Shown here: piece after piece, positions 5,763-30,544 of the stretch
How positions within the stretch are numbered: the stretch's first letter is position 1
How the letters are laid out: every line of letters starts with the position of its first letter
Source of the DNA: Diadema setosum
Lineage: Eukaryota > Echinodermata > Echinoidea > Diadematoida > Diadematidae
NCBI RefSeq assembly: GCF_964275005.1
Contig: NC_092704.1
Span: 5,600,048 to 5,664,047, forward strand
DNA length: 64,000 nucleotides
Direction: 5' to 3'
Position numbers and translations under genes: made by a program
The notes under the pieces: model-generated
The model's database searches: none
Told to the model about the DNA's origin: nothing
What the model saw: only the letters and a program-made list of their open reading frames with translations

Positions 5763-6460
5763 ATGTCGACACAAACAGTGGACGTTCATATCAAGCTGAC
5801 CAGCGGTCGCACCGTTCACTTTCCCGTACCTCAGGAGACAACCATCGCAGAGCTGTGCCAGAAAGCAGCTGCTGAGGAGAAGACTCCAGCAGAAGAAGTG
5901 ACGCTGAAATTTGATGGCAAAACACTGAAGAGAAGCAAAACCGTCCGAGATTATGGAATCCGGGAGGAAACAGTACTTAAAGTCAAGGTATAAAAATTGC
6001 TGTAGGACCTGTATTGATACTTTAAGAACACTTGACTTCTTTTGAAGTTTTGTAAATACAGCATATCGTTCAATATACTATCTCCTGCTTGAGTTTTTGT
6101 TTGATGATTTCATTAGCTAGCCACACACAGATTAAAGTTCGTCAACCCTTGGAGGTATACTCCCGAGAAAGAAAGACACTCCCAGTTTCTTCGTTATGGC
6201 GCCCTTTATGGAGCGTCCGGGCCCACAAGATTATCCGCAGGGGTTGATTGCACATGAGTATAATGAGTTATGCCATTTCGGCATTTTTTTCCGCGAGGGA
6301 TGGGGAGGGGGGAGGGGGTGCAAATCATCGTTTTCTTGGACCACAGAGCTACATATTGTAGATACATGATTGGAAATTACTTTGAATTTCTGTAGGCCTA
6401 TTTTGACTGCAGACATACCTGGGAGTATTTGGAATCCAGTATTAGTCAGAAATTAGTCAG

Positions 6461-6531
<71 letters not shown>

Positions 6532-9037
6532 TGAATTGATCAGTGTTCTATAGTAGAAGCCATGATAAAAATAATAGAAACTATAGAACACTGATCAATT
6601 CAGTGCTTATTTACGTCGATGTAGGGCAATTTGTCAATCAGTTGCAATGAAAACATCTCGACGGAAGAATTTCATGAATTTGAATAATTACGCAGTATAC
6701 CCGCTGCATGCTATAAGGATTAGAACCAACACTTGTTGTCAGGTGAAAGCTCGGTGGTCTAGTGGAGATGACGCCTGTCCGGTGATCAGGAGGTCGTAGG
6801 TTCGAATCCTGCTCGAGTATGTACGTCCATTATTTTTATCATGGCTACTACTATAGAACACTGATCAATTCAGCTGTGCTTATTTACGTGAGGGCAATTT
6901 GTCAATTAGTTGCAATGAAAACATCTCGACGGAAGAATTTCATGAATTTGAAATCTTTTTTACCTGAAAAAAAAAGGGTACTATGATTCCACCATTGACA
7001 GAAAACAAAAATACTCTTTTAAAAATAACCCGAGTTTTCTCAGGCAAAAGAGACAGCTTCGATAGATCATACATTCCGCGCTCTACGTTGTTTACTATTT
7101 TTTATGTTTCTTACTGCAATATCGTTTGGGCTTGTCAGAAGACTAAACTCAACTCACTGCTTCTCCTTCAGAAAAAAGTGGTCCGTATTTGCACGAACTC
7201 GGACTACAGGTCTCATGCAAACCCATTTTTTTTTTCAATTGCGTACACATTCTATATACGACATTAATTATCTCCAAAGTGCTGTGTTTACTGCACAGAT
7301 TCCATTCCCACGCACCCACATGTTCCGCTTTAACTGAGCTATTATACGTAGTGATCCAACTTCAACCTCGACAAACGTGCGCCTATACGTATATAGAAAA
7401 TCCAAGAATTGCCCTTGCCCACCGATCCGTATACGACATGCTGGTCCTGACATCTGGAATTCTCTTTCTCATGAAACGACGGTGCCAAACAAAACATACT
7501 TTTAGAGGACGAGTAAAGAATACCATTCTTTGCAAATATGTTTAAGCAATACCAGTTGCATATTATGGTTCTTGCCTGCACTCCCGGGTTCACAGGTTTA
7601 TCTTGTCATCACGTACATTTATTTAGTAACAAGTCATTCCATGTTACCAGAATCATCAATTTTGTACAACTTTCACCATAAGCACCATGATGTAAAGTAA
7701 CCCTCTTATTTTCCTCTCTATATTTCTTCCTTTCTCTGTTCTTCTCTCATTTCCCTATCTATGAATCTATTGAACGTGCATAATACATTGTTTTTTTTTT
7801 GTTGTTTTTTTTACTGATGTTTATGTACATGATACTGTGTAATTTATCCACTTGACGTCCCAGTCAAGCTTTTCATAGCTTATGACGATCTACACAAAAA
7901 TATAATAACATATCATGTGCAAACTGTATATATATAACTGTTTGTGTATAATGTATCTATAGATATTATGCATTTTGTGAATCAAATCAAATCAAATCAA
8001 ATCAAATCAAATCAAATCAAATCAAATCAAAAGGTTATCAGGCCAGTGGTAAAGTTCTCGACTTGGACGATCGATCAGGATTTTTTTTTGTGTGTTTTTT
8101 TTTTTCGACAACCATGCGGACAATATTATGACGAAACGATGAGAGGTTATTATTCGGAGCCGACTTTGGGGTTTTCTCTATGCCTGCTAGCCGTCACGTA
8201 CATGGTTCGTCTTCCTCCTCGTCCTTCCTTCGTTCCTTCAGGACACGGGCACTGCTACCATGTACCAGTCTCGGATGAATCAGATATTGGACATCCGTCA
8301 CTTCGACGGAACCGCCTTGTCCAAAGTCAATGTTGCTGGTTGTTGTGTCTCAGTATGACTGTAGATATCGATTATAGTACATTAATCATCATTTTTATTT
8401 TTAAAGCAAATCAATGTAACGAATTAGGCCTAAACCATTTCAATATGATGCATACGTAATTTAATATTAACATTCCTGAATTAAAAAGAATTCTCTTAAA
8501 GAATGAAATAATCATTCTCTTTTTCTTTCTTTCTTTTTTTTTGGAAGAATGAGAGCAAAACAAAAAAGAAACACTTAGGAGCTGAAGTGGTCGCATGCTT
8601 ACGCTTCCATGACAATGTGGAAACTGTGGACAAAGACTCTCATACAGCTCTCGCCTTACCTCCTTTCTATACGGGGACCTGCTGCTGAATGCTGACATTC
8701 ATGGGTTCAACATCAAAGGAACACCTGCACAGGATAAAGTGTCCGGCTGCTCCGTGGGGGCTTCTTTTGACTTCTTGTATTGCTATAATTCTGAATGAAA
8801 GTGGGACTAAAGGCGAAGACGCTCAGGAGCGCTTAAATACGGAGGAGACTGTACATACAGGCTGGATGTCTTGACGAAGTTCGCATGACAACGCAGACAA
8901 ATTACAGAGGGTGTCACTCAGGAGGTTTACTTCAGTCTCCAAATTTGTGGTCTCGAAAATTTGGACGCATAAAGTTTTCCCTCACCCAAGAGAATGTGGC
9001 ATCGCCGGCATGTGTCTAGGAATAGAGACAGAGAGCG

Positions 9038-9129
<92 letters not shown>

Positions 9130-10387
9130 GCATATATATATATATATATAATTCCTTTTCATATATACTGCATTCCGCGTCTTGTCAGTGCCCACGCGGG
9201 CGTGTGTATAGTATCTGGGCCCTGTCTTAGATCTGCATCGGACATTTGAAACCCAGATTACATTTTCCATGCCTCTGGTGATTTTGCTTCTTTGATGTGC
9301 AAAGACCGTTCACATACCAATAAATCCAGCCCACCAATCAATCACAATCATATAATTATTGTCCTTCCTTAATTGCCAAGTTTAAATAAGTGATGTACAT
9401 TCGCTGTGAAATAGAAATTTAATGTCATCATGCCATAGTAAACGCTTTTTCATAATCATTATCTCCCTTCATGTTATAGTACCATTATCTAATGTGAGGC
9501 TGTTTACACTATCCACTGCTTTTTCCTACAATAATGGAATCTTGGAATCGTTATTAATTGATCTATTTTGTTTTGCAGAGAACAGAGCATATTTAGTTCT
9601 TATCTAAATGAATGTGCATGACGGAAAGTGTTCAATGGGAATGATTTCATCTTTTCCCCCCAACATCCTTGCAGATGATCGCTAAGCAGACGTTACAGGT
9701 CCACTTGAAACTGCCAGACAATGAAGTCGTGTCCTTTGCGATCGACAACACATCCCTCCTGTCCGAGATCAAGGACAAACTTGTGCAAGAAAAGCCTGAT
9801 GTGCAGCAAAAACTAATAACATTTAAGGTAAGGTATATATCTTTATCTTCTAAGAATTTACTTACGAATATTTGTAAATGTTTGAAATATTCTGCATTCA
9901 CTTGAAATCCGTATTTTATGATTGTATTATTATATGTTTTTGTTGGAATGAAAGACAAATGGAATGAAAATGCAGTCTACCTATTGGCAGTAACTTGGGA
10001 TAAGATGGTCAGTCATGAACAGAATTCATGGAGACAGATTTATTGTAAGTTCATAAATAGACTTCATGTGACAGGAATACTTGCTAAAACGTATTATTAA
10101 AAATGGCAGTTCAATTTCCCTATGCCACCATTAATGTGATGACAAATTTGTGAAATTATAACGTGTCGGCTGTATCTATCTTTAAGATGGGTGACATGGA
10201 GCTGAATCTGTCAAACTACGCCTATGAAGATTGTCTCGAAGATGGAGAAAAAATTGATGTGATCGTCAAGGATCCACCCGGAGAAGATGGGGAGGAGGAG
10301 GAAGATGGAATGGCTGAGGAGAAAAAGCAGGTGGGCGATGTGTGAAACTAGATTTTCTTTGCAGTTTGTTTCTTGTGCTGGTTTTCT

Positions 10388-10434
<47 letters not shown>

Positions 10435-12089
10435 CAGATTTTTACATAACTTTTCAGGTAGTTTGGAAGTCTATTCATGAGTGATAGGCGGGAAGTAATG
10501 TATCTAGAGACAGCTATAGGGGTAATAATAGGTACGCACTTTGAGCACCTTACAGAGTGGATCTAGCGCAATATAAATTCATATTATTGTCATTATTATC
10601 ATAATATAGGTCGGGTGGATGATGGGGATATCTTCTTCAAGGAGATATGACAGGAACTTCTTGTGAATTGTGCACATGAGTCGGTACAACGTTCTATCAA
10701 GCCAATGCTAGCCTGTAATAAATAATGCTCATGAGGATTGGCTGTTCCTCTTGCGAAGTTTGAAATTAAAAACAATCACCTGGTTTGATAGGATCTTTTC
10801 ATAACTCCAAATACATCCCAATCCAACTGGACGCAAGATGCTATACCATTATTTCCCGAAGACTAAATTCTGTGAAGAATTAGATGCTAAGTTGAAATCA
10901 ATTAATGGTAATGGTAATGGTAATGATAATGGTAATGGTAATGGTAATGGTAATGGTAATGGTAATGGTAATAGTAAAGCTTTATCAAAAATTAATTTGC
11001 AGCCGTGGAGATGACTGAATTGCAGAATTTTGTGCATTTTCATTTCGTAATCACATACATAAACAATAACTCTTCAAATGTAATACAAAACTACACTATG
11101 TCATCATTCAAAAAACAAGAATGACATCTGATAAACAAAATTTTGAAATTAACCAAATACACTTGTGCATACACATTGGAAGAACTATTAAAAAAGATGA
11201 AACATATTGATAATCAATTCACAATTATATATATATATATAAACATATATATACACTGCATAATCATGAACAATTACCTAAACTGTTACAAAGTAAAATG
11301 TTTATTTTGTTTCCCTGCATACAGGAAGTTTTGAACAGCTTTGCTGCTAACATGACATCGCAGCGTAAAGTCGACGTAGTATTCTCCTTCGACACGACCT
11401 GTAGCATGTACTTTTTGTTCTCGACGGTAGGTTGGTCAAGGACGACCTCCGGGACGACCCAGCTTGCTATTACTTCCTGTCGTTTATTGACCTCTACCAT
11501 GATATAGCTGCAAGTGCTTAATATTCATACTTCAGGGATGACTATTTACTTGTAGGGATCCACTGCATTAACGACTTATAATGTATTAATTTTTACTAGC
11601 GACTATATTTATCAGAGCAGTCAGAATCATCATAATTTTAGGCTTGGATTCTGATGTTATGTTAACTGTGATGTTGCAGTATTTTTGTTGATATACGTGA
11701 GCAATAAACGTTGGTATAATTGTACATCAACGAGACAAATGTCCACACGTGGTATATATCTGAATTAAATCACTGATAATCAATACAATACAATACGTAT
11801 ACATAATAATTATATATATATATCGTTGCTCCGCGTATTGGCAGTACTAGAAATAGCAATAATAATGTCACAATAGACAGATAGAGGAATGCATTAAATG
11901 CCAATTGCGCAATCTCTTCGAGATTGCGCGTGCTAGTATGGATAGGATATTAACACCTCATTAATATCACTGTGGAAATTCATTCGCACTATCATCCCTG
12001 ACGAAGGGGGAGGCCCCCGAAAATTCGGATTTTGAATTAAAATCAAGGCAATTGGCATTTAATGCATTCCTCTATTGTGACATTATATA

Positions 12090-12129
<40 letters not shown>

Positions 12130-12418
12130 CATATATATATATATATATCATACTTGTAGTCCGCGTGTTAGTACCAGTACAGAAAAGATGACGAAGTAGG
12201 GTGGCAATGCATTCAGTACAACAGTGATATTTATTCAGACCAAATTTTCGACGAATACACTCGTCTTCCTCAGGGTCGACAATGACTTTCAGAATTGTCA
12301 TTGTCGACCCTGAGGAAGACGAATGTATTCGTCGAAAATTTGGTCTGAATAAATATCACTGTTGGACTGAAATGCATTACCACCGGCCCTACTTCGTCAT
12401 CCTTTCTTATTATATATG

Positions 12419-12450
<32 letters not shown>

Positions 12451-13456
12451 TATATATAATTCTATAATATAATTATACATACATACATACACATTGTGTA
12501 TATTGTCACGATAATCCACCCAAGGAAAAAAAAAAAAGAAAGAAAAGAAAAGAAGGTGACTTCGTACCTTTGCATTGTCTTATAAAAGACCACATATATC
12601 TTTGGAAAGTCGTACTTATCATATAGCTCTCAAATCTACAATAAGACATAATTAATATGTATTCAAATTTTATGTGCATGTGAAAATATATGTTTCATAT
12701 GTACATATACCGATGTGTTGGCTCAGTGAGTAGAGCGGCTGCCCTCACAATCGGGAGGTCGTGGGTTCAAACCCCGGCCGCGTCATACCAAAAGACGTTA
12801 AAAGATGGGAGTTGCTGCTACCTTGTTTGCCGTTCAACAGTTGAAAAGGTTAGAGCAACGTCGATCTGGCGCTGCTCAGTGGCTGCCGGGCCCACGATCA
12901 ATTGGGCAAAAAGAATTTTCATTCTTGGACAATAAAATTTTGAATAAAAATATTATTATGAATGCATATATTCATGTAGTATGCGTCTATGTTACTTTAT
13001 CTATCATCTATACCATATTATATGTTTTATGTTTTCAGGTCAAGGAACGAATCCGTCAGTCAGTCACCAAACTCCTGGCAGATATTCCCAACATCCAGAT
13101 TGGAATCATGGCTCATGGAGACTACTGTGACCAGAAGTTGTACGTCCTGAGGAAGCATGATCTCTCCTCCAATGTCAGCGACCTCGTGAATTTTGTCACG
13201 GAAACGGACCGCACTGTAGGAGAAGGATATCATGCGGTGAGTTTCAGTGGTAGGATAGTTTTTTTTCCCCTTCAATAAAAAAAAAGAGAATACAGAACAT
13301 TAGAATAATAGAGTATTTTCAAGTCAAATAAAACCCCACCATTGTCTCTGCTTTTGGAGATAATCTTTTGCCCAATCCCCCCAAAGAAAAAAGAAGAGAG
13401 AGAGAGAGAGAGAGAGAGGGAGAAATAGAGAAATAAATTATCTCCCTCTCTCTTTG

Positions 13457-13508
<52 letters not shown>

Positions 13509-15867
13509 TGTATGATAATGTATGTTTGTATGCAACAGTGATATGATACTTTATTACCCCATATACCACAAACATCTGAATAATAAAAAAGAAAAAGAAA
13601 AAGGAGCGAAAAAAAAAACAGAAAAATAAACTCTCTCTCTCTTTGCATGATATATATTTATACGTGTGTGTGTATGTGCAACATGACAATGTGTGTAGCT
13701 ATAGTAGTATACATTATTATAATAAATATTAGAATTGTATCCTGTGCAATTGCATGTAGTGTGATAGTATAATAATATCTAATGTGATAATCCACATGAC
13801 ATGTTTGTGTCATATATAATAATTTTGATATAAAACATTATCAATGGCGCAAGCATGAGTACCTAATTACAGCTGTATTGGCAATTCATCTCGTCAAACC
13901 TGCGATGATTTACTTAACTTTGTAATGTAAATGTATATGCTTATGATGGATTTTCTGATTTACCTTGTGTTATGTTTTGTTGGAAGAAAAATGAGAAAGA
14001 AATAAATGAATTGGAAAAAAAAATGAATTGAACTTCCCATGCCCCCTTTTTTCGATGGTGTCAGCACAATAATCCACTTTCATTTGTTATAGTGTTACGA
14101 GTGGGTCTTGAGACATGCGAACAATCTGTCCTGGCGAGAGGACGCAGCCAAAGCTCTGGTCATCATCGGTGATGTCGTCCCACACGAGAAGTCTTACACC
14201 ACTGAACAGGTGGACTGGAGGGCAGAACTTGATGACTTGATTGCCAAGGAAGTCAAGGTACCCCCCCCCCCCCGGCCTACATCCTCCCTATCAACACCCC
14301 CCCCCCCCCACACACACACACACACGCACCACAATATGGATACCATGGGTATAAAGGAGAGTTCCAGTGTCGGCACATTATAAGTATCTTACAGAATATA
14401 AATGCACTTGATTTCCAATTCCTTTATGGTATATACTTTCAAAATTTGTACTTTGCATGAATTAGATAACTATGCTAGACTGCATGGTTCACTGCTTTTT
14501 CTTTAATGTCATGAGATTGTTTGAAGCTTTCATGCATGAGCGAGACATTGATGGTAATTATTCATGTATCAGGTAAACCTGATTTTTACAATCAAATCAA
14601 GTTTTGTTGTTTTATAGGTGTACGGAGTGCAGGTAAAAGACTATGGTCCAGGCGATTCTTTCTACGGGTACATGGCGCGCAAATCTGGAGGTGCTCATAT
14701 CACATTCCAGCACTTTGGGCTTATCACCGACATGTTTCTTGCAGGTAAGACCACCATTCTGTTAAACTTGTAACAATACATCGTTCCTTTGGATGTTTCT
14801 ATTTATTTTTTTTTCATTGCACATATCAGATCAAAAATAAATATGTACAATTAATTTTTTTTTGATGACAAACTAATGTTTATAATGTTTTATAATATTT
14901 ATGTTTATAATTTCTTTTATTTCAGAATATAAGCCTCAATATGATTTTCAACAATAATCATTTATAGACTTAATGAATCGTCAACAATATGCTTGAAACT
15001 TCTGCCAATGAAGGAATGTACAGTGACTCAAATCCCCATTCATAAATACACACACTCAAAACAATTAATCACCAACACACTGTCTTTTAAGCCATATACA
15101 CTCTTCAGATCCTCAAGAGACCATGCAAGTCCAACAGCCATTAAAGCAATTTCTGCAAACATATTATACAAAAGACCAACACTGATGTGAATGGATTCAT
15201 CAATGCAATTACATGTATAATAATCATAATGTTTTTACTTCTACCAGTGGTGGCGTTGGTTCAGCATAATGACTGTTTCCTAATACACAAAATAGAATGA
15301 TTACGTTACCCTTCGAAATTTGTATTTCGTTTACTCCTATATAGTGTGTTACAGGGAGTCCGGCGATGCCCAGCTCAAAGCTTATGTTGATGAGGTGAAA
15401 AGCGAGGGAAGGATGACAGAGGAAATGATGGATGTGATGCAGCAGTTAGAGAAGAAACCAGAGGAAGAGGAGGAAAAGAAGGGGGAGGAAAAGAAGGAAG
15501 AGGAGAAGAAGGAGGGGGAGAAGAAGGAGGGGGAGAAAAAAGTTGAAGAGGCAGCAGCTGAACCTGCGGGTGCAGCGGCTGAACCATCGCCACGGAAACC
15601 ACAGGTAAGAAATTCAAACATCCCGCGGGAAATATCCGGCATTTTCACAACAAACTCTCATTTGATACCCAAACCATTCCAGACAATGATATGCAGATCA
15701 ATTAAAGCCATTTCCTTTAGAAATTACATTATTTTGTTGGAAACCATATCTTTCGTTTCATGAATTATTAAGGTATACGGTCTGTACCAGGGCATGTGGC
15801 AAAATGCATGTAGACAGAAAACTGGCGCATTTACATCTAAAGGAAAGCACTAACCATCACAATCCAT

Positions 15868-15914
<47 letters not shown>

Positions 15915-16219
15915 CTTATACATTAAACCCCAACAAGCCCAACAAAAGACATTCATTCGCCATTCTTTTAAAGAAGGGAAATGATGGGCATGTTTGCAAT
16001 GCTGATGATGATTATAAAAATCTTCACCTTGTTTGTTTGTTTATCCAGGAGGAGGCTTACGTTAAAAAGCCATGGTGGGACGAGAGTCTGGATCAAGAGA
16101 CCCGCCCGCGATTCACCTACAACGCCAAGAGAGACGTCTGGCGCCGAATCCACGTGGGTAGAGGAGCAACGATCCGCAATAAATGTGGACAGTTGAAGGA
16201 GGAATGCACTCTAATGTAG
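5763..16219 (+). CDS. Ubiquitin-like/VWA domain protein with CaaX box, tandem paralogue 1 (9 exons, 514 aa)
   Basis: Exons: 5763-5987, 9675-9827, 10187-10330, 11325-11426, 13039-13236, 14093-14257, 14618-14744, 15345-15604, 16049-16219. All joins have GT/AG borders and keep frame. Residues 1-75 are a ubiquitin-like fold (FDGKTLKRSKTVRDYGI core). Residues 76-165 are a second ubiquitin-like fold, followed by an acidic patch. Residues about 190-390 are a VWA domain: VDVVFSFDTTCSM is the MIDAS loop, then HGDYCDQ, NNLSWREDAAKALVIIGD and a VYGVQ...GGAHITFQHFGL...CYRESG end typical of this VWA subclass. Residues about 400-440 are Glu/Lys-rich. The last four residues are CTLM, a CaaX box with Met in the last position that predicts farnesylation. 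Oddities: the MIDAS loop reads DTTCS where copy 2 has DTTGS, and the start codon lies downstream of the copy-2 start because one inserted base splits the ancestral ATG. Neither ubiquitin-like fold ends in Gly-Gly. Function is not known; membrane scaffolding is inference. Confidence 0.9.
6464..6530. repeat. (TA)n microsatellite in intron 1 of paralogue 1
   Basis: About 33 TA units abut the inverted-repeat SINE structure that starts at 6531. Confidence 0.95.
6531..6951 (+). mobile_element. Composite tRNA-derived SINE with inverted and direct repeat copies
   Basis: 6749-6818 is tRNA-like: a TGGTCTAGTGG A-box region, a GGTTCGAATCC B box at 6799-6809, a foldable T arm (GTAGG/CCTGC) and a partly paired acceptor stem. 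The following tail (6825-6951) contains CTATAGAACACTGATCAATT. The same tail occurs directly at 6581-6693 and, for its first 45 bases, inverted at 6531-6575. This looks like one SINE family with at least two truncated extra copies, not a functional tRNA gene. Confidence 0.7.
6983..8031 (+). mobile_element. LINE 3' end (CR1/L2-like) with (AAATC)n tail
   Basis: The reverse-transcriptase C-terminal 'thumb' signature is recognisable in pieces: FYVSYCNIVWACQKTKLNSL, LQKKVVRICTNSDYRSHANP, then YDINYLQ, and further on WNSL-like and RTSKEYH-like remnants up to about 7545. The reading frame shifts several times and stops are present, so the copy is dead. A non-coding 3' tail runs to an (AAATC)n repeat at about 7980-8031, the kind of short tandem 3' terminus used by CR1/L2-like LINEs. 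It lies in intron 1 of paralogue 1 and explains much of that intron's extra length (3.7 kb against 1.3 kb in copy 2). The 5' end is truncated. Confidence 0.8.
8242..8338 (+). other. Unassigned exon-like open segment
   Basis: A polypyrimidine/CAG acceptor-like site precedes an open frame that reads TATMYQSRMNQILDIRHFDG, then TALSKVNVAG, then a GT. The composition looks protein-like rather than repeat-like, but no family is recognised. It lies just after the LINE tail, is 97 bases long (not a multiple of three) and has no counterpart in intron 1 of paralogue 2. It could be a retrotransduced or retrocopied fragment, an exon of an unrelated gene, or chance. Confidence 0.2.
9041..9150. repeat. (TA)n-(GA)n-(TA)n compound microsatellite
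   Basis: About 32 TA units, then about 13 GA units, then a short TA run, all in intron 1 of paralogue 1. Confidence 0.95.
10390..10435. repeat. (TTG)n microsatellite in intron 3 of paralogue 1
   Basis: About 15 TTG units, beginning about 60 bases after the exon 3 donor. Confidence 0.95.
10905..10972. repeat. (GGTAAT)n hexamer repeat
   Basis: About 11 GGTAAT units with one GATAAT variant, in intron 3 of paralogue 1. Each unit contains a GGTAA string, so the array offers a row of cryptic donor-like sites. Confidence 0.9.
11864..12085. mobile_element. Inverted-repeat element with a Penelope/hammerhead-like hairpin module
   Basis: The ends mirror each other over about 38 bases: AATGTCACAATAGACAGATA then GAGGAATGCATTAAATGCC at the left, GGCATTTAATGCATTCC then TCTATTGTGACATT at the right. 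Inside, 11998-12022 reads CTGACGA, an A, a GGGGG/CCCCC hairpin, then GAAA. The same layout recurs at 12310-12337 with a different but still paired stem. The CTGANGA-stem-GAAA order is that of hammerhead ribozymes found in Penelope-like retroelements, but the extra A before the stem is not canonical. No open frame is present. Confidence 0.5.
12183..12405. mobile_element. Large palindrome: two head-to-head copies of a Penelope-like terminal segment
   Basis: The arms 12183-12284 and 12297-12405 are near-perfect reverse complements separated by about 12 bases. Each arm reads outwards as GTCGACCCTGAGGAAGACGA, a hairpin loop, then GTCGAAAATTTGGTCTGAAT and AAATATCACTGTTG. (TA)n runs flank both sides. 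The two short open frames over it are mirror images and are not genes. Confidence 0.65.
12711..12960 (+). mobile_element. tRNA-derived SINE in intron 4 of paralogue 1
   Basis: TTGGCTCAGTGAGTAGAGC is an A-box region and GGGTTCAAACCCC is a B box with a paired T arm (12762-12775). A tRNA-unrelated body follows (GTTGAAAAGGTTAGAGCAAC) and the copy ends in an AAATTTTGAATAAAAA tail near 12955. Confidence 0.8.
13396..13502. repeat. (GA)n and (TA)n microsatellites
   Basis: A GA run at 13396-13420 and a TA run at 13458-13502 in intron 5 of paralogue 1; a CTCTCTCT block between them mirrors the GA run. Confidence 0.9.
15870..15913. repeat. (CA)n microsatellite
   Basis: About 22 CA units in intron 8 of paralogue 1. 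Confidence 0.95.
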
Positions 16220-20517: not shown

Positions 20518-20549
<32 letters not shown>

Positions 20550-20580: not shown

Positions 20581-20724
20581 TTCGAAAGAACATGTCTTTA
20601 TACAGTTGATCCTTGCTCGTTCTATATAGGCCTAGCCTATGATGCAAACTTTAAGAGAACACCTGAAATCACTATTTTTCTTTTATTTGCATGATTGTAC
20701 AGTCAACTTTCAATGTAGCGACCA

Positions 20725-20892
20725 GGGGGGTGTTTCATCAATTTAGTCAGCGCTGACAAGTTGTCAGTCTCTGACAATTTCAGCAAAATCCTCGGTTTTG
20801 ATTGGCTGAGATGCTCTGGTCACTGACTGTTACCATGGTGATTGTCAGAGACTGACAACTTGTTAGCGCTGACAACTTTCATGAAACGGTCC
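20725..20892. mobile_element. Palindromic MITE, GTTTCATCAA...TTTCATGAAAC ends
   Basis: The mirrored arms contain AGTCAGCGCTGACAAGTTGT and ACAACTTGTTAGCGCTGAC, with GTCAGTCTCTGACA inside. A second copy of the same family is at 34560-34735 in opposite orientation. Confidence 0.8.
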
Positions 20893-21231
20893 AGTCTGAC
20901 ATAGTGCACAAAGACTAGTGCAGCTGACGCACCAATACCTTTGCATACTGTTGGAGCACAATAAAATGCCAGCTCTGGCAATCCCAGGTCTTCTCTTCGT
21001 CTTTCTCTTTTCTTACCCCTTCTCCTATTTTTCTTCTTCCTCATTTCTTCTACATCTTCATCTTTTTCTTCTTCTTCTCTCCCGTTTTCAATATTTCCTC
21101 TACACTTTGTCTCAAATTGTTCTAAATCTGAAACGAACAAGCAAGGGTGTGTTACCATTCCCTGGATCGTGTATGTGCATGCTCTCTGCTGCATCGTGCT
21201 GCTGGAGTCGGGGAAGTACGTGTGATACTAA

Positions 21232-21320
21232 TTTTAGAACATTACATCACTTCGAACGGCCGACCAAAATAGTCTCGTCTGACGAGTATAAAACACACCC
21301 ACAGTGCGGAAGTGAACGGT
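21232..21320 (+). promoter_or_regulatory. TATA-containing promoter of the second VWA/UBL paralogue
   Basis: TTTTAGAACATTACATCACTTCGAACGG-type sequence (21232 onward) and AAAACACACCC are shared with the first paralogue. TATAAAA lies at 21287-21293, about 190 bases upstream of the ATG, so a start near 21320 is plausible. Confidence 0.5.
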
Positions 21321-21480
21321 GTTGTTAAAAGCAAGCCACCGTAGCTGTGAACAGTGACAAGCTCCAAACTCTGGCCAGCGTAACCATCTAGGATCTTACC
21401 AAGCAGGAATATAAACCGCGATTCTAAACCCTTATCTCTTTACTAAGATTTGAAGAGTCAACAGATCTTGCCGTGAAACC

Positions 21481-24400
21481 ATGGCTCCGACAATGCCGTC
21501 TAGTACAGTCGACGTAAGCATCAAGCTGACCAGCGGTCGTACCGCTAAGTTCCCCGTGCCCTATGGCACGACCGTCGCTGAGCTGTGCCAGAAAGCAGCT
21601 GCGGAGGAGAAAGCACCCGCGGAAGAAGTAACGTTGAGGTTCGATGGCAAGACGCTGAAGAGAAGCAAAACCGTCCGAGATTATGGGATCCGGGTGGAAA
21701 CAGTACTAAAAGTCAAGGTAATTGTTGTCTTATTTGATACTTCAAGAATTTTGAAATGTTAATATTTCAATGCATGTCACTCTTGCAGCCAGTACTGTTG
21801 TGAGTGTTGTGTAATACAATCATATTATAAGCCATTTAGTGTAGGCATAGTGATTCTGTAAACATAATTGCTTCCTTGCAGATATTCCAATGTTCCTAGC
21901 TCTCCCTGTCTATATCTCTCACTATATCTCTACCTCTTTATCTCTCTCGATCTCTCACTTCTGTCTGTATAAGGCCCATGCATGCATGTCGTGCATTGCA
22001 CAGTTATTTACTCCATTAGAGTGGTTATTAATGTTGATATCTGAAAACTAATTGTTACTGTGTTCTCCAAAATTGAATTTATTTTCATATTTCCTCTGAT
22101 CCTCTTCTGTTCATTTCCCTTACTCCATCCTTTCTCTTTCTAAAGCGTATATGCATAGGAATAGCTACTTATACATGCAGTGACTGGGCTGTGTATACAG
22201 TTGAACCTCTCGTATCCGGACAAGTCGGGACCGGGGCTCGTCCGGATAAGGGATTTGGCCGGATACGGGAGACTCAATGCTTTATACATGTAGAGTCTAC
22301 ATATATACATACACATGTACATGTACTGATGTAGCCCATGGTAGTACCACATGTAGTAATGTTTATACTGCAACCTTTTCATTGTTACACTCAGTAACAG
22401 ACCCCAAAATAGAGGTTCGTGTTTGCAAGAATGAAATCATTTTCTTTTATAAATTCTTGGGATGATTTACCTAAATAATTATTAAGAAATGTATCCGTTG
22501 GGAATCCCCCTTTCCTCCCGTAATTATTACAAAAGATAAAAGAATCACGGCGAGATTGCGTCCGGATAATAGAGAGATCCGGATAAAGGGAGGCCGGATA
22601 ATAGAGGTTCAACTGTAGTTAGCATAGGGACTACATCTGGTGTGACATCCACTGTAGTAATGTACATGGTTCATTATTATCTTTGTGTTAGGGTTTGATC
22701 ATGAAATGATTTTTACAGAAGTGGCATCCAATCACAATCAAATGTTTATTCTCTTGAGTATCAAATCAATCAGGAATACCCGTAGGTGTAGTTGCTGCAC
22801 AAAATATAAATTTCATGTAATGCCATGCAGCATTATAGGAGATGTTTTACCATCCTGGTAGTGGCACCATTATTTGATAGGAGTCAGCATACAGGTGTCG
22901 TATTTTCTAAAATGTCTGCATTTTTTTTAAAGAACAGTGTGCATTTACTATCTTTTTGGATAAACATATTCAAAGAAGATGATATCATTTTGTTCATTTT
23001 CTTTTCTTGCAGATGATTGTCAAGCAGACATTGCAGATGAACTTGAAACTTCCAAAGGATGAGGTTGTTTCCTTTTCGATCTATAACACATCTCTCCTTT
23101 CTGAAATCAAGAACAAATTACTGCAGGAGAAACCTGACATGCACCAAAATCTGATTGTTTTCAAGGTAAGTCTCCTAATCACTTAAATTCATCGGATGTG
23201 GGGGATGTTGGCAGGAGTGGGATAGGGTTGGGTGGTAAGTAGTGGCGGACTCAGGGGGAGCGCACTGGCTGTGCGCCCCCTTCTACTTTATTCTAACAAC
23301 AAAATAAATTTAAAAAAAAATGGGGGAGGGGGCATGCGCCCCCTTTTATTTTTTAATGGCACCCCCTCTTTACGAAATTCTTGGATCCGCCCCTTGTAAG
23401 TCATGACAGGTAGCTGCATTGAATTAGGCAGGTGTGTTATCTTGTATGTTTAAGGTTATTTATTATATCTCAGCTTATACTAAATATTACATCAATGACA
23501 GACTTACCCACTGAGAATACCCGTTTGTACAAGTATGGATGTCTGCATTTTTTAAATCTGAAGATTGAATCTCCCTTGCTACGAAGTCTTGAATTAAATC
23601 TTTGAAATAATCTCTTGTCAATGCAATAAAAGCCAAGCAACAATTCCTTTGTGGTTTCTATGCATCCCGTCTTAATGATATTGTATCTGTGTCTCAATGA
23701 ATATTTTAAATTGTCTTAAGACAGTGATGTCAACCTTATAAGAGTAAGAATAGTATTGTGGCTGAAGACCGACTATTGCTCTCAATGACTGCATGCATGT
23801 TTGTGTATAGACAATAGGCATATCAGAATTTATAATTCATGTGAAATTTTAGTTGATGTTTTACAAGTGAAAGTGGCAACCATGAAGAGAGATATTTCAT
23901 TCTCTCCTCTCAAAACTGATCTCATTCATTTTTGATCGGACTATTTATTATAATAATGACTCCATTTGATTCTTTAGTTGCATGTCAAGAAGCTTTTGAA
24001 AGTAATACAAGTTTGGTAAAATGAGAGAATTTTGAAAACGGCATTCATATTGCACCAAGCATCTGTGGGTATGATAGCTACATTTAAAGGACCTACCCAT
24101 ACTCAAGTTGTAACATGTTGGCTGTATTGTATTACTTCAAGATTGGTCAAATGGAGCTGAATCTGTCAAACTATGCCTACGAGGACTGTCTCGAAGATGG
24201 AGAAAAGATTGATGTGATCGTCAAGCGTCCGCCTGGAGCAGATGGGGAAGAGGAGGAAGAGATGGCAGAGGAGGATAAGCAGGTAAGCAATATGTGAAAC
24301 CAGATTTTCTTTGCACAATTTTGTTTTTATTTTTTTTATTGTAATGATTTTTTTTTTTTTTTTGTTTATTATGGAAGGAGATGTATTAGGCACATAGTTT

Positions 24401-27400
24401 GGCAGTCTATTCTGGAGTGATGGTTCAGGGGTTGAGTTTACTGTAAAGCCAGAAATGTTCGCATGTACTCTGATTTCACAAATTTTGTGAGAGTCAAGAT
24501 TTGCAAAATTTAACTGCATGTGAAAGTTCTTGCCTACATTATTTTGTAATGCCAGTGACAATGGGCTCCAATTTGCAAAAATTTTATTCTGCAAATATTT
24601 CTGGTTGTACAGTTTAATATGTATCTACATAATGAAAGGCAGAACACACTGTAAACCTAGAAATTTTCGCATTCCCTGAAACTTTCGTAAATTCTTGAGG
24701 AGCCAAGTTTTGTGAAAGCGAAATGGACGCAAAAGCCAGTTGTCTGCACAGTGCATTGAATGGCAGTTGCAATTTATTGAAGTTTTATGCCATGAAAACA
24801 GCTGTTTGCTCCGCTTTGGGAAAGTTTCCTGCCATGACTATTTCTGGTTGTACAGTTGAATGACTGATGTGTCCTTTGTTGTCTGCATGTGATCGTGCTT
24901 TCCTATATTATCAGTTCCCATGCAAGTTCAACAGCCCTTACAATTAATGGCAGTCAGATGAGAAATCTAGTGAAGCAGGGCATACCAGTCTGACCCTGTC
25001 TATTCAAGTGTATTGATCATGACAAGCAAGGTTTTGTTATTACCTCTGGCAAGGTTGATTTTAGCATTGGTTTGTTTGTCTGACTGAATCCACAACTTTG
25101 TTAGATAATTTTGAAGGATTCTTTTTTTTTTATCAGTATCATTAGCAAATAGCACCAACAAACTAGAGAATTCAGGCTGCTTGTATTTGAGGTGGGCATA
25201 AGTGCATTGAGCATGTGCTCAAGGCACAGCAGGAATTTTGTTAAAGGGAACATAAACCCAAAGAGCAATGTGGATTGAGTAAAAGCAGTAACAGTAGTAG
25301 AACACATCAGTGAAAGTTTGAGGAAAATCGGACAATCGATGCAAAAGTTATGAATTTTTAAAGTTTTGGTGTTGGAACCGCTGGATGAGGAGACTACTAG
25401 AGGTTATGACGTATGAGAGGACCACAATATAAAGAAAAAATAAAAGGAATTCCACAAAAATTCACTTTTCTAGCAAAATGAAAGAGTTCTTGACTAACCG
25501 CTATCAGAAAGTAGGGGGAACAAGTGCTACCCCTAACATATGTCAGTATCAAGTTAATGGAATGTGTAATTTTCATGAAAAATGAATTTTTATTGAATTC
25601 CCTGTTTATTTTCTTTATATTGTAGTCCACTCATACGTCATAACCTCTAGTAGTCTCCTTACCCAGCAGTTGCAACACCAAAACTTTAAAAATTCATAAC
25701 TTTTGCATCGATTGCCCGATTTTCCTCAAATTTTCACTGATGTGTTCTACTAATATTACTGCTTTCACTCAATCCACATTGTTCTTAAGGAAGGATTTTT
25801 TATCATTAGAAAGCAGAGCCAGTTTCAGCATAAAATGCATGTATGGATTGAAATGAACTGCTTGGTGGAGGTCTGCGCTCTCTGAGTGCTTTTCTAGTTG
25901 TTGCTGTTACTGTTGATGATAATAATTAAAATTCAGTATTTATTTTCCGTTAAGAAAAATGGGAAAATGTTAAAAATGAGGGATGCATGAAGTTCCAAAA
26001 TCATATTTTGGAACTGAGCTCTCTGAGTGCTTTTCTAGTTGTTGCTGTTACTGTTGTTGAAGATAATAATTAAAATTCAGTATTTATTTTCCGTTAAGAA
26101 AAATGGGAAAATGTTAAAAATGAGGGATGCATGAAGTTCCAAAATCATATTTTGTAGACACCAGATACCAAGGTTTACCACTTGATTGCCTGAACCCCCA
26201 CAAAGTAAAATGTTTATTTTGTTTCCCTGCATACAGGAAGTCTTGAACAGCTTTGCTGCCAACATGACATCGCAGCGTAAAGTCGATGTGGTATTCTCCT
26301 TCGACACGACTGGCAGCATGTATTCTTTGTTATCAACGGTAGGTTTTATCATGGACGACCCACCTCGCTACTTCCTGGTGTGTGTTGATACAGCAGAGAA
26401 TCATTGACATGAAGTGCTTAGCTACTTCATTACCCACTGCATTAAAGGCCCTAGTGCAATTGATGTACAATTGCAGCAACTAACTTGACACAAGTCAAAC
26501 TGTTAATATATGCTGTTACTGCACTGTAATAATATTTCCCACAAAAAACCCAGACAAACAAACAACCTAAAAAATTGTGCATAATATATCACCACAAGGC
26601 ACATATCGAAACCCAGTTCCTCTTCAGAAAAACTTTGTCAATAAAAAAGAAAGTTATCATCGTCATAAAATGTATATTTTAGAGCATGTAACAGTGTCTT
26701 TCTTTCTATATAACCATACCGTATGCTTTATGTGATGACACTAGGTGAGGGCTTCAAAACTTGTACACAGAATTTTGACCTTTGACTTCTTTGACCTTGA
26801 TTTTTGACCTATATTGTACATTGGCTACAAAATGCTACTCCTTCGCCATTTCTAACCCGATTTCGATTCCGTTTGCTTTATGTGATGGCACTAGGTGAGG
26901 GCTTCAAAACTTCTACATAGAATTTTGACCTTTGACCTTGATCTTTTTACCTATATTGTACATTTTGCTACTAAATGCTACTTCCGGCGGGGACATATAT
27001 TACGCACCGCGTAATTTCTACTTTTCCTTGTTTGTTTTATAAAGTTATGCAGTGGTATGTTTATATATTTATATGTTTGCATATGCATATGTTTGCATAT
27101 TTATATGTTTGTTAGGTCCAGGCAAAACTCCGACACTCAGTCACCAAACTCCTGGCAGATATTCCCAACATCCAGATCGGTATCATGGCCCATGGAGACT
27201 ACTGTGACCAGCACATCTATGTCCTGAGAAAGCATGACCTCTCTTCAGAAGTTCTTGACCTTGTGAACTTTGTCACAGAAACGGACCGCAGTGGAGGGGA
27301 AGGAAACTTTGCTGTGAGTGTCATTGGTGGATATACATAATTTTTTGGTCAATTTTTTTTCTCCCATATTAGCTTGGAAATGAATCCACAAACTGTTTTC

Positions 27401-30400
27401 GAAATAAGTTTTATAGATGTATTTGCTGTACAATATAGCTTTTTAAAATAATTTCTATGGATGTATTTACTGTAACTGTCATTACTGAATAGAGGCATAG
27501 GAACTGTACTTCTGAAAGTGAAATTCAGTGTTGTAGGGTCAGCAGAAAATACGTTGTTTCCCAAAGACTTTGATTAAAAACAATGAATGCTGATGCATAT
27601 GTGACAGAAAACAGAAAACAAAACACACAAACAGACAAAAAACGAACAAATGTTCAAGTATTTCTGTCACATTAAACAAGATGTCTTGAAATCTCATGAT
27701 GTGTTTTGGTTCATAGGTCTTACTTTGACTATAAGCAAAACAAATTGATGTGTGCTATGTATATAATCATGTTTGTAATTGTACTGTTATTCCTTCCAAC
27801 AACTTGCGGGTACACACAGTACTTTTCATGTTTTTGACATAAGTTTGCACTATCCACTTTTTTTTTTCCAGTGTTACGAGTGGGTCTTGAGACATGCGAA
27901 CAATCTGTCCTGGCGAGAGGACGCAGCCAAAGCTCTGGTCATCATCGGTGATGTCGTCCCACACGAGAAGTCTTACACCACTGAACAGGTGGACTGGAGG
28001 GCAGAACTTGATGACTTAATCACCAAGGAAGTCAAGGTAATGTCCCCTCCCCTCAAAAAGATGAATAATTATAGTAATCATAAAATGTTGATAAAACAGA
28101 AGTCATAAGGTACATGCAGACACTATATATATACAGAATATGAATTAATTTTTTTTTTTCTGATACTTTTAATTGTAATATTTACACACTTTGTACTACA
28201 ACTGACTCATTGCTTTGATAATGCATATAGAATTAACATGTGCCACTTCCATCGCAATTATGTCCATGGAATGCATTTTCCATGAGTTTAGTACAGTTTC
28301 ATTTTGTTTATTTCTATTCTTGTTTTGTTTTTTGCTTATATTCTCTCTTGTTATTTTTGTCATGTTATGGTACATCACAGTCTAGCAATTAAAGACATTA
28401 TGTTTTGATGTTTTTTAGGTGTACGGAGTGCAGGCACGCAGCTATGAACCAGCCAACTCTTTCTACGGGTACATGGCACGCAAATCTGGAGGTGCTCATA
28501 TCAAATTCCAGCACTTTGGTCTTATCACCGACATGTTCCTTGCAGGTAGGACTGCCATTCTCTTCATGCTACCGTCTTGTGTACGTGGAACATTAATTTG
28601 GATGATGCCCTCATCTAGAGATTGAAGCAAAATATATATAACTATTGGTATTACTGATTCTAAGTATTGATAATATTTTGCTTTTAATTGTTCAAAGGTG
28701 CACAAGCAGAAAGTCAGCATCAATATGTAATTAGCAGTAGTTATCATAAAATGTAAAGAAATTTGGGGAATTGCTATAAGGAAGAAAGTTATCAAGTATC
28801 CCCCTTTAATCAAAGGAAAGGTCCTAAATAGACCGATTTATACAAATCAAACATCCGCATAGCGATTTTTACAACATTATTGTAACCACTGTGAAATATC
28901 AGAAGATATCTCTCACAAGCAGTAGTGTTATTTTCAATTTTGTGTATGTTCAGTAATATCAGATGAGCAGAGTAACCAGGAATATATTACGACCTTTTAA
29001 AATTATGATATCTCCTCATATTTACAGTGTGCTACCGAGAGTCCGGAGATGACCAGCTCAAGGCGTATGTAGATGAGATGAAGAACGAAGGAAGGATGAC
29101 AGAGGAAATGATGGATGTGATGCAGCAGTTAGAGAAGAAACCAGAGGAAGAGGAGGAAAAGAAAGAGGAGGAAAAGAAGGAGGAGGAGAAGAAAGAGGAA
29201 GGAGCAGCAGCTGAACCTGCGGGTGCAGCAGCAGCAGAGCCATCACCACAGAGACTGCAGGTGAGAAATCAGACAAGATGGAGAATTTTCAGACATTTTT
29301 ACAATAAATGTTTTTAACGCATCCATGACAAACTATCATATGTTGGTAACTTAATAACCATCACATGCAGGATTGACATTCATGGCAAACTACATCTTTC
29401 AATCAGTAAATCAAGGCCCTTTGGCAGGGACTTTAAAGGGATAGTACAGTTTTGGTGGAGATGAGAATTGGGTTTTTAACTTTTTGCGAGATACCAAGAA
29501 AACACTTATGATATAGTACAGAACATACCATTTTAAGAGGAATTCAAAGTTTATTTGACGAAAATCGGGTTTGGAATGACTGAAACATCAAAAAACAAAG
29601 TAAAACAAAGCGATCGTAATAAAGTGTGGGTCCCACACTTTATTAGAATCGCTCTTTTTTGATATCTCAGCCATTTCAAAACCAATTTTCATCAAATAAA
29701 CATTGAATTCCTCATAGAATTACATGCTCTTTCACATTTTATAAGAGGTTTCTCATTATCTCACCAAAAAATGTTAGAAACCTGAAATTAGGTCTCAACC
29801 ATAACTGTACAATCCCTTTAAAACGTTGAGGACGGTTTGATTTGGCTACAACACGCATTTCCCATATACGCTTGCCTGAGTATACTCTAGACTCGTCCTC
29901 AACGGGTTAAGCCATCAGTCCTGTAGTTGCTGGCTTACAAGCATCCATTGCTTTCCTAGCAGCAAAGTAAAATAAATCAGTAAAGATAACAGGGATATGT
30001 GCCAAAAACATTGATTAAAGAGACAAATAAAACAACAAAATGACAACAATGAAAAATGACCAAAACAAAGAGACAAAAAGGCATCTCATACTAAGCAAAT
30101 CTCGGACAAGGAAAGCTCACAACAAAAAGGGAAATGATTTGCCATTCTAATGAGCATGGGACCTTAACCTGTTGAGGATGGACTTATTTTGCTATAGCGC
30201 GCATTTCCCATAGACACCTGCCCGAGTATTCTAAGGACTCGTCTTCAAAGGGTTAGAAGGAGAGAGATGTTGGTAATACTGATGTTAACATTGCACTGGA
30301 AATTTCCATCACACAATGATTGTAAACATTGTCATCTCTTTTGTCTGCGCAGGAGGAGGTTTACATCGCTGAATCGTGGTGGGATGAGAGTTTGGACCAA

Positions 30401-30544
30401 CGAACGAGGGTGGCATTCAACTACGATGCCGACAACGACAGCTGGAGCCGAAACAGCATCGACCACAACTCCCCCAACCTAGATAGGTCATCGACGACTC
30501 GTAGAAAGTCCAAGAAAATGAAGAAGGGCTGCGCTCTGATGTAG
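21481..30544 (+). CDS. Ubiquitin-like/VWA domain protein with polybasic CaaX tail, tandem paralogue 2 (9 exons, 515 aa)
   Basis: Exons: 21481-21717, 23013-23165, 24142-24282, 26237-26338, 27116-27313, 27872-28036, 28419-28545, 29028-29260, 30353-30544. Intron phases match paralogue 1 at every position. The start is ACCATGG, a good initiation context. Residues 1-79 and 80-168 are two ubiquitin-like folds without terminal Gly-Gly. The VWA domain (about 193-395) has an intact MIDAS loop, DTTGSM at 200-205. The Glu/Lys-rich segment is nine codons shorter than in copy 1. The C terminus reads RRKSKKMKKGCALM: a CaaX box (CALM, Met favours farnesyltransferase) next to a polybasic stretch, the layout that anchors K-Ras-type proteins to the plasma membrane. 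Membrane attachment and metal/partner binding by the VWA domain are inferences from family knowledge. I know no named animal protein with this exact architecture. Confidence 0.92.
22196..22616. mobile_element. pogo/mariner-like MITE with CCGGATA repeats
   Basis: The ends are TACAGTTGAACCTCTCGTAT and the mirror ATAGAGGTTCAACTGTA, with TA at the outer edge. CCGGATA or TATCCGG occurs repeatedly in the terminal parts, as in Tigger/pogo-derived elements. It lies in intron 1 of paralogue 2. Confidence 0.8.
23239..23394. mobile_element. hAT-like MITE, AGTGGCGGA...GGATCCGCCCC ends
   Basis: Same family as 19492-19648. GTAAGT lies immediately outside both ends. The body has mirrored GCGCCCCC and GGGGGCATGCGCCCCC blocks. 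It lies in intron 2 of paralogue 2. Confidence 0.7.
24440..24613. mobile_element. MITE, ACTGTAAAGCCAGAAAT ends (copy a)
   Basis: ACTGTAAAGCCAGAAATGTTCGC-type left end mirrors ATATTTCTGGTTGTACAGT at the right. A second copy begins 35 bases later. Both are in intron 3 of paralogue 2. Confidence 0.65.
24648..24856. mobile_element. MITE, ACTGTAAACCTAGAAAT ends (copy b)
   Basis: Begins ACTGTAAACCTAGAAATTTT and ends TATTTCTGGTTGTACAGT, the same family as copy a, with diverged interior. Confidence 0.65.
25036..25902. repeat. Widespread invertebrate repeat (CTCTGGCAAGG...GGTGGAGGTCTGCG), split by a nested MITE
   Basis: The left part (25036-25125) reads TTACCTCTGGCAAGGTTGAT and then TTGGTTTGTTTGTCTG. 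The right part (25826-25902) reads CTTGGTGGAGGTCTGCGCTC and then TGAGTGCTTTTCTAGTT. From memory this is one repeat family common in marine invertebrate genomes. The TTAA element at 25241-25788 lies between the two parts. Confidence 0.55.
25241..25788. mobile_element. Long-arm MITE with TTAA borders, about 550 bp
   Basis: TTAAAGGGAACATAAACCC and AGCAATGTGGATTGAGT at the left are mirrored by ACTCAATCCACATTGTTCTTAA at the right. The arms extend about 200 bases on each side (AGAGGTTATGACGTATGAG against CTCATACGTCATAACCTCT). TTAA borders suggest a piggyBac-type target. Confidence 0.8.
25877..26158. repeat. Direct tandem duplication, period 141 bp
   Basis: Two adjacent, nearly identical units start at 25877 and 26018, each beginning GCTCTCTGAGTGCTTTTC and each containing TATTTATTTTCCGTTAAG. 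They differ by a few bases. The duplication starts inside the right end of the invertebrate repeat and ends about 80 bases before exon 4 of paralogue 2. Confidence 0.9.
26730..27035. repeat. Interspersed repeat with an internal duplicated unit
   Basis: CACTAGGTGAGGGCTTCAAA, TTTTGACCTTTGAC and CTATATTGTACATT each occur twice, about 140 bases apart. The end (CCGGCGGGGACATATATTAC, then GCACCGCGTAATTTCTA) resembles a repeat terminus. It lies in intron 4 of paralogue 2. Confidence 0.6.
29433..29821. mobile_element. TTAA MITE, AGGGATAGTACAG...CTGTACAATCCCT ends (copy a)
   Basis: TTAA borders lie at 29433-29436 and 29818-29821. Long mirrored arms contain AAAACAAAGTAAAACAAAGC and AACCAATTTTCATCAAATAA segments. 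It lies in intron 8 of paralogue 2. Confidence 0.85.
29818..29910. mobile_element. Short TTAA MITE, GTTGAGGACG...CGTCCTCAAC ends (copy a)
   Basis: Ends TTAAAACGTTGAGGACGG and CGTCCTCAACGGGTTAA. It shares its left TTAA (29818-29821) with the neighbouring element. Further copies lie at 30164-30256, 39013-39109 and about 42230-42332. Confidence 0.8.
30164..30256. mobile_element. Short TTAA MITE, GTTGAGGATG type (copy b)
   Basis: Ends TTAACCTGTTGAGGATGG and CGTCTTCAAAGGGTTA. The core ATTTCCCATAGACACCTGCC is shared with the other copies. It lies about 100 bases upstream of exon 9 of paralogue 2. Confidence 0.75.

Follow-up and report, generated by a model that had tools for sequence, protein, structure and literature searches.

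A 64,000-nucleotide stretch of Diadema setosum DNA (the window, here always meant at its full length) contains two tandem genes on the + strand, each with nine coding exons, whose conceptual products of 514 and 515 aa join an N-terminal ubiquitin-like module (UBL1), a second, probable ubiquitin-like module (UBL2), a VWA domain and a C-terminal CaaX end. Sequence comparison confirms this gene pair and its order of parts as real, the gene models themselves being conceptual. By the same kind of comparison, the VWA is a member of a specific family seen in bacteria, in phages and in one probable giant virus. We did not find the UBL-UBL-VWA-CaaX combination in the open-licence papers searched, in keeping with the first-pass annotation, which gave no named protein of this make-up.

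Two paralogous genes under constraint

Exon borders were picked at GT-AG sites that leave the frame open in both copies (Table 1). The resulting intron phases match between the copies at 8 of 8 introns, seven being phase 0 and intron 7 phase 1, so that the earlier description of two nine-exon genes with identical phases holds. The borders of UBL1, UBL2 and VWA coincide with phase 0 introns. The two proteins are identical at 411 of 526 alignment columns, and alignable DNA between the copies is limited to exons and exon edges, save for one 44-base upstream match. A comparison of 503 codons gives a dN of 0.113 and a dS of 0.571 (dN/dS ~0.20), indicating that both copies are under constraint and that the gene pair is not a chance observation; dN is smaller than dS in every part measured.

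Table 1 Features of the two genes, in positions of the window.
Feature	Position	Strand	Evidence or remark
Copy 1, gene	5763..16219	+	nine coding exons, 514 aa, C-terminal CTLM
Copy 1, exons	5763-5987, 9675-9827, 10187-10330, 11325-11426, 13039-13236, 14093-14257, 14618-14744, 15345-15604, 16049-16219	+	
Copy 1, UBL1 (exon 1, whole module in one exon)	5763..5987	+	PF00240 E 1.9e-15
Copy 1, UBL2 (probable) and short acidic linker (exons 2-3)	9675..10330	+	PF11976 (SUMO-like)
Copy 1, VWA (exons 4-7), metal motif DTTCS	11325..14744	+	PF00092 E 2.4e-5
Copy 1, helical tail (conserved in VWA family), then Glu/Lys-rich segment (exon 8)	15345..15604	+	alignments with relatives
Copy 1, exon 9, fast-evolving, ends CTLM	16049..16219	+	CaaX codons 16205-16216
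Copy 2, gene	21481..30544	+	nine coding exons, 515 aa, C-terminal CALM
Copy 2, exons	21481-21717, 23013-23165, 24142-24282, 26237-26338, 27116-27313, 27872-28036, 28419-28545, 29028-29260, 30353-30544	+	
Copy 2, UBL1 (exon 1)	21481..21717	+	PF00240 E 1.6e-12
Copy 2, UBL2 (probable) and acidic linker (exons 2-3)	23013..24282	+	PF11976 below cut-off
Copy 2, VWA (exons 4-7), metal motif DTTGS	26237..28545	+	homology to cyanobacterial and phage proteins
Copy 2, helical tail, then Glu/Lys-rich segment (exon 8)	29028..29260	+	alignments with relatives
Copy 2, exon 9, ends RRKSKKMKKG-CALM, polybasic and CaaX	30353..30544	+	CaaX codons 30530-30541

Ubiquitin-like modules and C-terminal ends

The order UBL-UBL-VWA proposed at first pass stands for UBL1 and the VWA, by profile or homology, and is probable for UBL2. 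The identity of UBL1 is secure at the level of sequence profiles (Table 1), and the module also matches ubiquitin and polyubiquitin chains in the PDB. At the position of ubiquitin I44, UBL1 has a Lys, so the earlier phrase "ubiquitin-like surfaces" is not to be taken as ubiquitin mimicry. A structure model of UBL1, made from the two sequences, had a pLDDT of 52.7 and was too weak for use.

UBL2 is probably a ubiquitin-like module. Its best Pfam model is PF11976, which matches UBL1 too; with UBL2 scanned alone, copy 1 covers profile positions 2-72 of 72 at E 4.4e-5 and 23.7 bits, and copy 2 reaches E 2.8e-3 and 17.9 bits, against a cut-off of 23.8. UBL2 is 80% identical between the copies but bears little resemblance to UBL1 (hhalign probability 10.8), and no UBL was among the matches of the UBL2 profile in the PDB. 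As first noted, Gly-Gly is absent after both modules in both copies. The chain continues beyond them, so the UBLs would not be open to conjugation.

The conceptual proteins end in CTLM and CALM, as had been read at first pass. A CaaX box with Met as X is a farnesylation signal. Exon 9 of copy 1 encodes one additional Cys, which precedes that of the CaaX box by eight residues.

Bacterial, phage and viral relatives of the VWA

The VWA had been assigned to a type that occurs in diverse prokaryotic and eukaryotic proteins. Prokaryotic relatives were indeed found, but the type is not merely generic, since the relatives form a specific family with bacterial and phage members and one member from a probable giant virus. 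In the 15 best rows for each copy, the VWA and its helical tail share 42-48% identity with cyanobacterial proteins across some 220 residues (42-47% for copy 1, 44-48% for copy 2). These cyanobacterial relatives are free-standing proteins of about 354 aa; further relatives are Myxococcota, clostridial and tailed phage proteins and one protein of the probable giant virus. Copy 2 matches phage Rctr197k with a tblastn E of 7e-47, and each copy matches, at blastp E<=1e-3, 152 of the 152 rows of a similarity-gathered set (148 fetched relatives and four named proteins, one distant plasmid protein included).

With the two window VWAs as sole queries, 0 of 63 pattern matches were confirmed in genome contigs and 0 of 60 in viral contigs. 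After phage rows were added, the confirmed matches numbered 142 of 184 and 71 of 95, respectively, and the best 80 of the 142 were retained. L124, used as sole query, gave 1 confirmed match out of 7, its own contig. The fetched relatives number 151 (L006-L156), with L013 yielding no ORF under the FDTT[GC]SM rule.

The prokaryotic and phage relatives have neither UBL nor CaaX, whereas the window proteins have both. Most of the relatives' ORFs that were printed carry a C-terminal domain ending in ...QSTSxNRKLxxxTxFLYEV, which crAss001 gp52 and other shorter phage members lack; by inspection, the QSTSxNRKL...FLYEV motif is absent from both window proteins. In the two members tested, P0001 and L044, the C-terminal part matches phrog_26613. 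We found no family name for the free-standing relatives. PADLOC gave no match at E<=0.01 among the three relatives scanned, and for this reason no defence role is claimed.

Rough figures from the 30 largest clusters of neighbouring ORFs (at least 90 aa, overlapping false frames included) show the VWA cluster covering 69 of 80 bacterial loci and the next cluster 29. For the latter, 12 of the 12 loci printed are cyanobacterial; smaller clusters (at most 9 loci) span phyla and by eye are common types, e.g. ABC transporters. Passages of PMC7159879 describe vWA-MoxR ternary systems, with a prokaryotic VWA, as predominant in multicellular bacteria. Those systems are operons with a MoxR ATPase, whereas no neighbour cluster of the relatives studied here exceeds 29 of the 80 bacterial loci.

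The host lineage could have acquired the VWA from bacteria or a virus and fused it to existing UBL and CaaX exons, an origin that is possible, if somewhat unlikely in our estimate, and compatible with the adaptor explanation given below. The identity to cyanobacterial proteins and the phase 0 introns at the domain borders speak for it, as does a quick tree in which the window copies and cyanobacteria fall together with an SH-aLRT of 93.9 (not starred) and which has eight fewer rows than the careful tree (L118, L121, L135, L141, L142, L144, L149 and L152). The careful tree, with 61 of the 151 relatives, Rctr197k, RHph_I1_18 and the two window copies, provides no firm placement: the window stem measures 1.64 changes per site and the bootstrap is not settled. 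With the quick tree, neither L124 (p-AU 0.75) nor the Rctr197k clade (p-AU 0.764) is rejected as an alternative partner of the window copies. Moreover, an old, vertically inherited eukaryotic family is equally possible, because all collections searched were non-eukaryotic.

Metal site of the VWA

The VWA is secure in both copies because of homology, although only copy 1 passes the Pfam cut-off. In scans of the whole proteins, PF00092 scores 25.1 bits in copy 1, above its cut-off of 23.8, and is missing from the matches of copy 2 at E<=1. No Pfam model matched a 153-aa piece taken from the VWA and tail of copy 1. Over 232 columns, VWA and tail are 88% identical between the copies, and the exons of the VWA show constraint (dN/dS 0.073/0.313). 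Profile A4 of the VWA family, made of 51 of 88 diverse rows chosen, found no sequence in the PDB at E<=1. In VIA-align 2, 50 of the 50 entries listed are integrin structures, a list that does not exclude other VWA families.

The metal-dependent site proposed at first pass is recognizable at the residue level. In an alignment with 63 non-window rows, the MIDAS-type residues D-x-T-x-S, T/S and D are present in both copies, each of which retains D13, T15, S17 and D118 (L044 numbering) and has Thr or Ser at position 84. Both copies keep 22 of 27 near-invariant family positions, a count in which positions 12-18 are imposed by selection, as only ORFs with FDTT[GC]SM (one optional residue) were retained; the patterns used for finding loci included FDTTGSM, IGD..PH or AHGDY[CQ]D. 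When positions 12-18 are excluded, 16 of 20 are kept, the exceptions being 84, 87, 88 and 91, which belong to none of the search patterns. These four of the five departures sit in one metal-site loop, in which both copies lack the Glu found in 63 of 63 rows and the Asp found in 60 of 63. With these widely conserved loop residues missing, the VWA of both copies may bind metal differently or not at all.

Proposed function

Our working explanation, held tentatively and with slightly less than even confidence, is that the two genes encode farnesylated cytosolic adaptors in which the VWA would grip an acidic ligand through a metal and the UBLs would be non-conjugable. The two in-chain UBLs would offer docking surfaces. 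By analogy with VWA biochemistry, the VWA and its helical tail would hold a divalent metal through D-x-T-x-S, Thr/Ser and Asp, and the metal would bind an acidic side chain of the partner. The CaaX end (CTLM or CALM) is predicted to be farnesylated and so to hold the protein at a membrane, with added support from the polybasic stretch in copy 2, and the Glu/Lys-rich segment may be a flexible arm from the membrane to the VWA. Counting against such an adaptor are the unlisted PF00092 in copy 2, the scores of UBL2 under the Pfam cut-offs, its faint resemblance to UBL1 and the lack of a UBL among its PDB matches, the poor UBL1 model, the loss of the loop Glu and Asp in both copies, and DTTCS in place of DTTGS in copy 1.

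The closest working analogy is the metal-dependent MIDAS of Rea1/Mdn1, which, according to passages of PMC6624252, binds the UBL of Rsa4 or Ytm1 via a Glu. Since this Glu coordinates the metal, one may speculate that the fused UBLs of the window proteins are ligands of the VWA, in the same or another molecule, and that they switch this VWA from closed to open or back. The Rea1 system differs in that MIDAS and UBL are on separate proteins, the MIDAS within a large AAA ATPase, whereas in the window both would be in one chain.

Alternatively, the VWA might no longer bind metal and be kept as a protein-protein platform, with the activity left to the UBLs and the lipid anchor, which might for instance recruit an E2 or E3 enzyme to a membrane in the manner of UBL3/MUB. 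The departures concentrated in the metal-site loop and the change from DTTGS to DTTCS in copy 1 are consistent with this, and UBL3/MUB is a known UBL and CaaX protein whose plant form, as parts of PMC10511055 describe, binds an E2 subgroup via an isoleucine-centred patch. UBL1, however, lacks the Ile-44 residue, the metal-site residues D13, T15, S17, D118 and Thr/Ser 84 are present in both copies, and constraint acts on the exons of the VWA, so that we regard this alternative as unlikely.

Comparison with known systems

Human UBL3 is described in passages of PMC10511055 as a protein of 117 aa with one ubiquitin-fold domain and a CVIL end that is probably geranylgeranylated. UBL3/MUB and the window proteins have in common a ubiquitin fold (from the UBL1 profile) and a C-terminal CaaX, but the former is small, with one domain and without VWA. 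PF13881, which we take to be the UBL3 model, stays below its cut-off of 23 on the window proteins: copy 1 scores 12.3 bits (E 0.19) and copy 2 scores 11.6 bits (E 0.31). RENi proteins (Rad60, Esc2, NIP45) have two fused ubiquitin/SUMO-like domains, as the window proteins probably do, and are not known to carry a VWA or a CaaX. The two SUMO-like domains of Rad60 are C-terminal and the RENi family is chromatin-associated, as stated in PMC549199 and PMC2946365, whereas the paired domains of the window proteins are N-terminal.

A more elaborate scenario is very doubtful when taken as a whole. In it, an animal lineage would have taken over a VWA protein from a cyanobacterium, a phage or a giant virus, lost that protein's C-terminal domain, reshaped the loop around the metal site and joined the remainder to two UBLs and a farnesyl anchor. 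The product would be a membrane switch whose UBLs open or close the VWA of the same molecule, much like the Rea1-Rsa4 grip but within one chain. Highly improbable, too, is a wrong gene model, with UBLs, VWA and CaaX exon on separate transcripts: the models are conceptual, the introns between exons 1 and 2 are long (3687 nt in copy 1, 1295 nt in copy 2) and exon 2 starts with ATG in both copies, but exon order, phases and open joins are repeated in two paralogues with DNA similarity nearly confined to exons, exon 1 runs into its donor without a stop codon, and dN is below dS in each part measured.

If the adaptor explanation is true, a VWA family of bacteria and viruses would be tied to eukaryotic ubiquitin-like biology, with a membrane address, and the gene pair would provide a simple test case for UBL-MIDAS recognition beyond ribosome assembly. 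HGDY-x-D, YE and GD-x-x-PH are conserved between the cyanobacterial and the window proteins, in part as an effect of the search patterns, and this points to an as yet unnamed function of the prokaryotic proteins.

Structure of the gene pair

The first-pass annotation had described two intact genes of nine exons with identical intron phases, and this reading is borne out: both copies have open spliced frames, and their intron phases agree at all 8 of 8 positions (seven introns in phase 0, intron 7 in phase 1). Aligned as proteins, the copies are identical in 411 of 526 columns and, over 503 codons, differ by dN = 0.113 and dS = 0.571; dN was below dS in each of the 6 gene parts measured separately. 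Because of these open spliced frames, the shared phases and the excess of dS over dN, both copies are most likely working genes. DNA identity between the copies is lowest in exon 9 (64.9%) and highest in exon 6, the other exons lying between 64.9 and 89.6%. Gene conversion has probably made about 150 bases of exon 6 alike in both copies.

Table. Features of the window and of the two encoded proteins.
Feature	Location	Strand	Description
Copy 1	5763-16219	+	nine coding exons, 514 aa, GT-AG splicing, no inner stop
Copy 2	21481-30544	+	nine coding exons, 515 aa, GT-AG splicing, no inner stop
UBL1	exon 1		module fills the exon; PF00240, E 1.9e-15 (copy 1), 1.6e-12 (copy 2)
UBL2 (probable)	exons 2-3		SUMO-like PF11976 over its length, 0.1 bit below cut-off (copy 1), E 2.8e-3 (copy 2)
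VWA domain	exons 4-7		PF00092 above cut-off in copy 1 only
Helical tail, then Glu/Lys-rich run	exon 8		both copies
CaaX letters	exon 9		C-terminal CTLM or CALM
Exon 6	14093-14257 (copy 1), 27872-28036 (copy 2)	+	98.2% DNA identity
GGTAAT microsatellite	10900-10975		copy 1, intron 3
ORF, LINE-like	7029-7337	+	
ORF, LINE-like	37061-37501	-	
ORF, NOM1-like	59178-59912	-	
ORF, NOM1-like	48486-48830	-	

Other features were observed within the window. The microsatellite creates a chance ORF of Asn-Gly repeats. We take the two LINE-like ORFs to resemble the ends of LINE reverse transcriptases; at E ≤ 0.1, Pfam gave no match for two frames overlapping the plus-strand ORF, nor for the minus-strand one. 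The NOM1-like pair, for which Pfam lists nothing at E ≤ 0.1, presumably resembles fragments of a NOM1-type nucleolar MIF4G protein.

Modules of the encoded proteins

Two ubiquitin-like modules without Gly-Gly had been proposed, and Gly-Gly is indeed absent after both UBL1 and UBL2 in either copy. UBL1 belongs to the ubiquitin family and aligns with PDB chains of ubiquitin and polyubiquitin. Residues L8, I44, H68 and V70 of ubiquitin form the patch by which it is usually read; in the alignment with the PDB match, UBL1 of copy 1 has Thr at L8 and Lys at I44, and it would have Lys at both H68 and V70 if the ungapped reading extends past the aligned end. The module of exons 2-3 is a probable UBL2, graded no higher because further tests of it gave weak or negative results.

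The VWA domain, the Glu/Lys-rich segment and the CTLM/CALM ends, also part of the earlier description, were located in exons 4-7, 8 and 9, respectively. We regard the VWA identity of copy 2 as secure, since its sequence is homologous to the VWA relatives described below. The 20 residues ahead of the CaaX cysteine include 8 basic and 1 acidic in copy 2, and 5 basic and 2 acidic in copy 1.

Metal site of the VWA domain

Among the 63 non-window rows of the alignment, 27 positions (numbered as in the relative L044) are identical in at least 60, and both window copies keep 22 of these 27; as 7 of them (positions 12-18) were imposed by the row-selection rule, the corresponding count without them is 16 of 20. 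The exceptions are Gly to Cys at position 16 in copy 1 only, Thr to Ser at position 84 in copy 2 only and, in both copies, Gly to Glu at position 87, Asp to Gly at position 88 and Glu to Ala at position 91. From general knowledge of the VWA fold, we take positions 84-91 to be the second metal-site loop. In the beta I domain of integrins, a loop with D-S-P-E carries additional metal ligands at what may be the equivalent place. What both copies retain is thus the plain set of D-x-T-x-S, T/S and D, and the extra acidic residues are lost. The border between exons 5 and 6 lies directly behind position 91; an unchanged loop length and the agreement of both paralogues nevertheless argue against a splicing error as the source of the loop changes.

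Relatives and origin of the VWA domain

The relatives (L001, L002, L004 and L006-L156) form a widespread VWA family for which we found no name. Its members are about 354 aa long, most of the rows printed have a conserved C-terminal domain, and the family is common to cyanobacteria, myxobacteria, clostridia, candidate-phylum bacteria and large phages; gp52 of crAss001 is a distant, shorter member. One relative with a Glu/Lys-rich tail (L124:4899-6038) adjoins RNA-polymerase-like ORFs on an IMG/VR contig, which presumably belongs to a giant virus.

In the careful tree, which included 61 of the 151 relatives, the window pair arises from a poorly resolved fork by a stem 1.64 changes per site long, and the bootstrap had not settled. 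The quick tree, with eight further rows dropped, grouped the pair with cyanobacteria (SH-aLRT 93.9, not starred). Trees constrained to group the pair with cyanobacteria, myxobacteria and a planctomycete (p-AU 0.882), with the clade of the phage Rctr197k (p-AU 0.764) or with L124 (p-AU 0.75) were not rejected, and these constrained trees out-scored the quick tree, so the quick-tree search was not exhaustive. The window VWA may come either from horizontal transfer or from old vertical descent, the rows compared being bacterial, phage and viral.

Comparison with known systems and proposed mechanism

Some known systems share single traits with the window proteins: a ubiquitin fold and a CaaX end in UBL3/MUB (PMC10511055), tandem SUMO-like domains in RENi, and prokaryotic VWA proteins in vWA-MoxR systems (PMC7159879), but the whole architecture occurs in none of them. 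The modules are known; for their combination in this order we found no description in the literature (open-licence full texts), and the prokaryote-type VWA domain in it is unexpected.

The domain architecture, the constraint on the sequence, the assignment of UBL1 and VWA to their families, the residues at the metal site and the CaaX letters are observed; beyond these we propose a mechanism. In Rea1, the MIDAS binds the UBLs of Rsa4 and Ytm1, and a Glu of the UBL is essential for this binding (PMC6624252). In the window proteins, the CaaX end would be farnesylated and place the protein on a membrane, the VWA domain would bind an acidic partner in a metal-dependent manner, and the UBLs would serve as fixed docking surfaces or, more speculatively and by analogy with Rea1, might themselves be ligands of the VWA domain.
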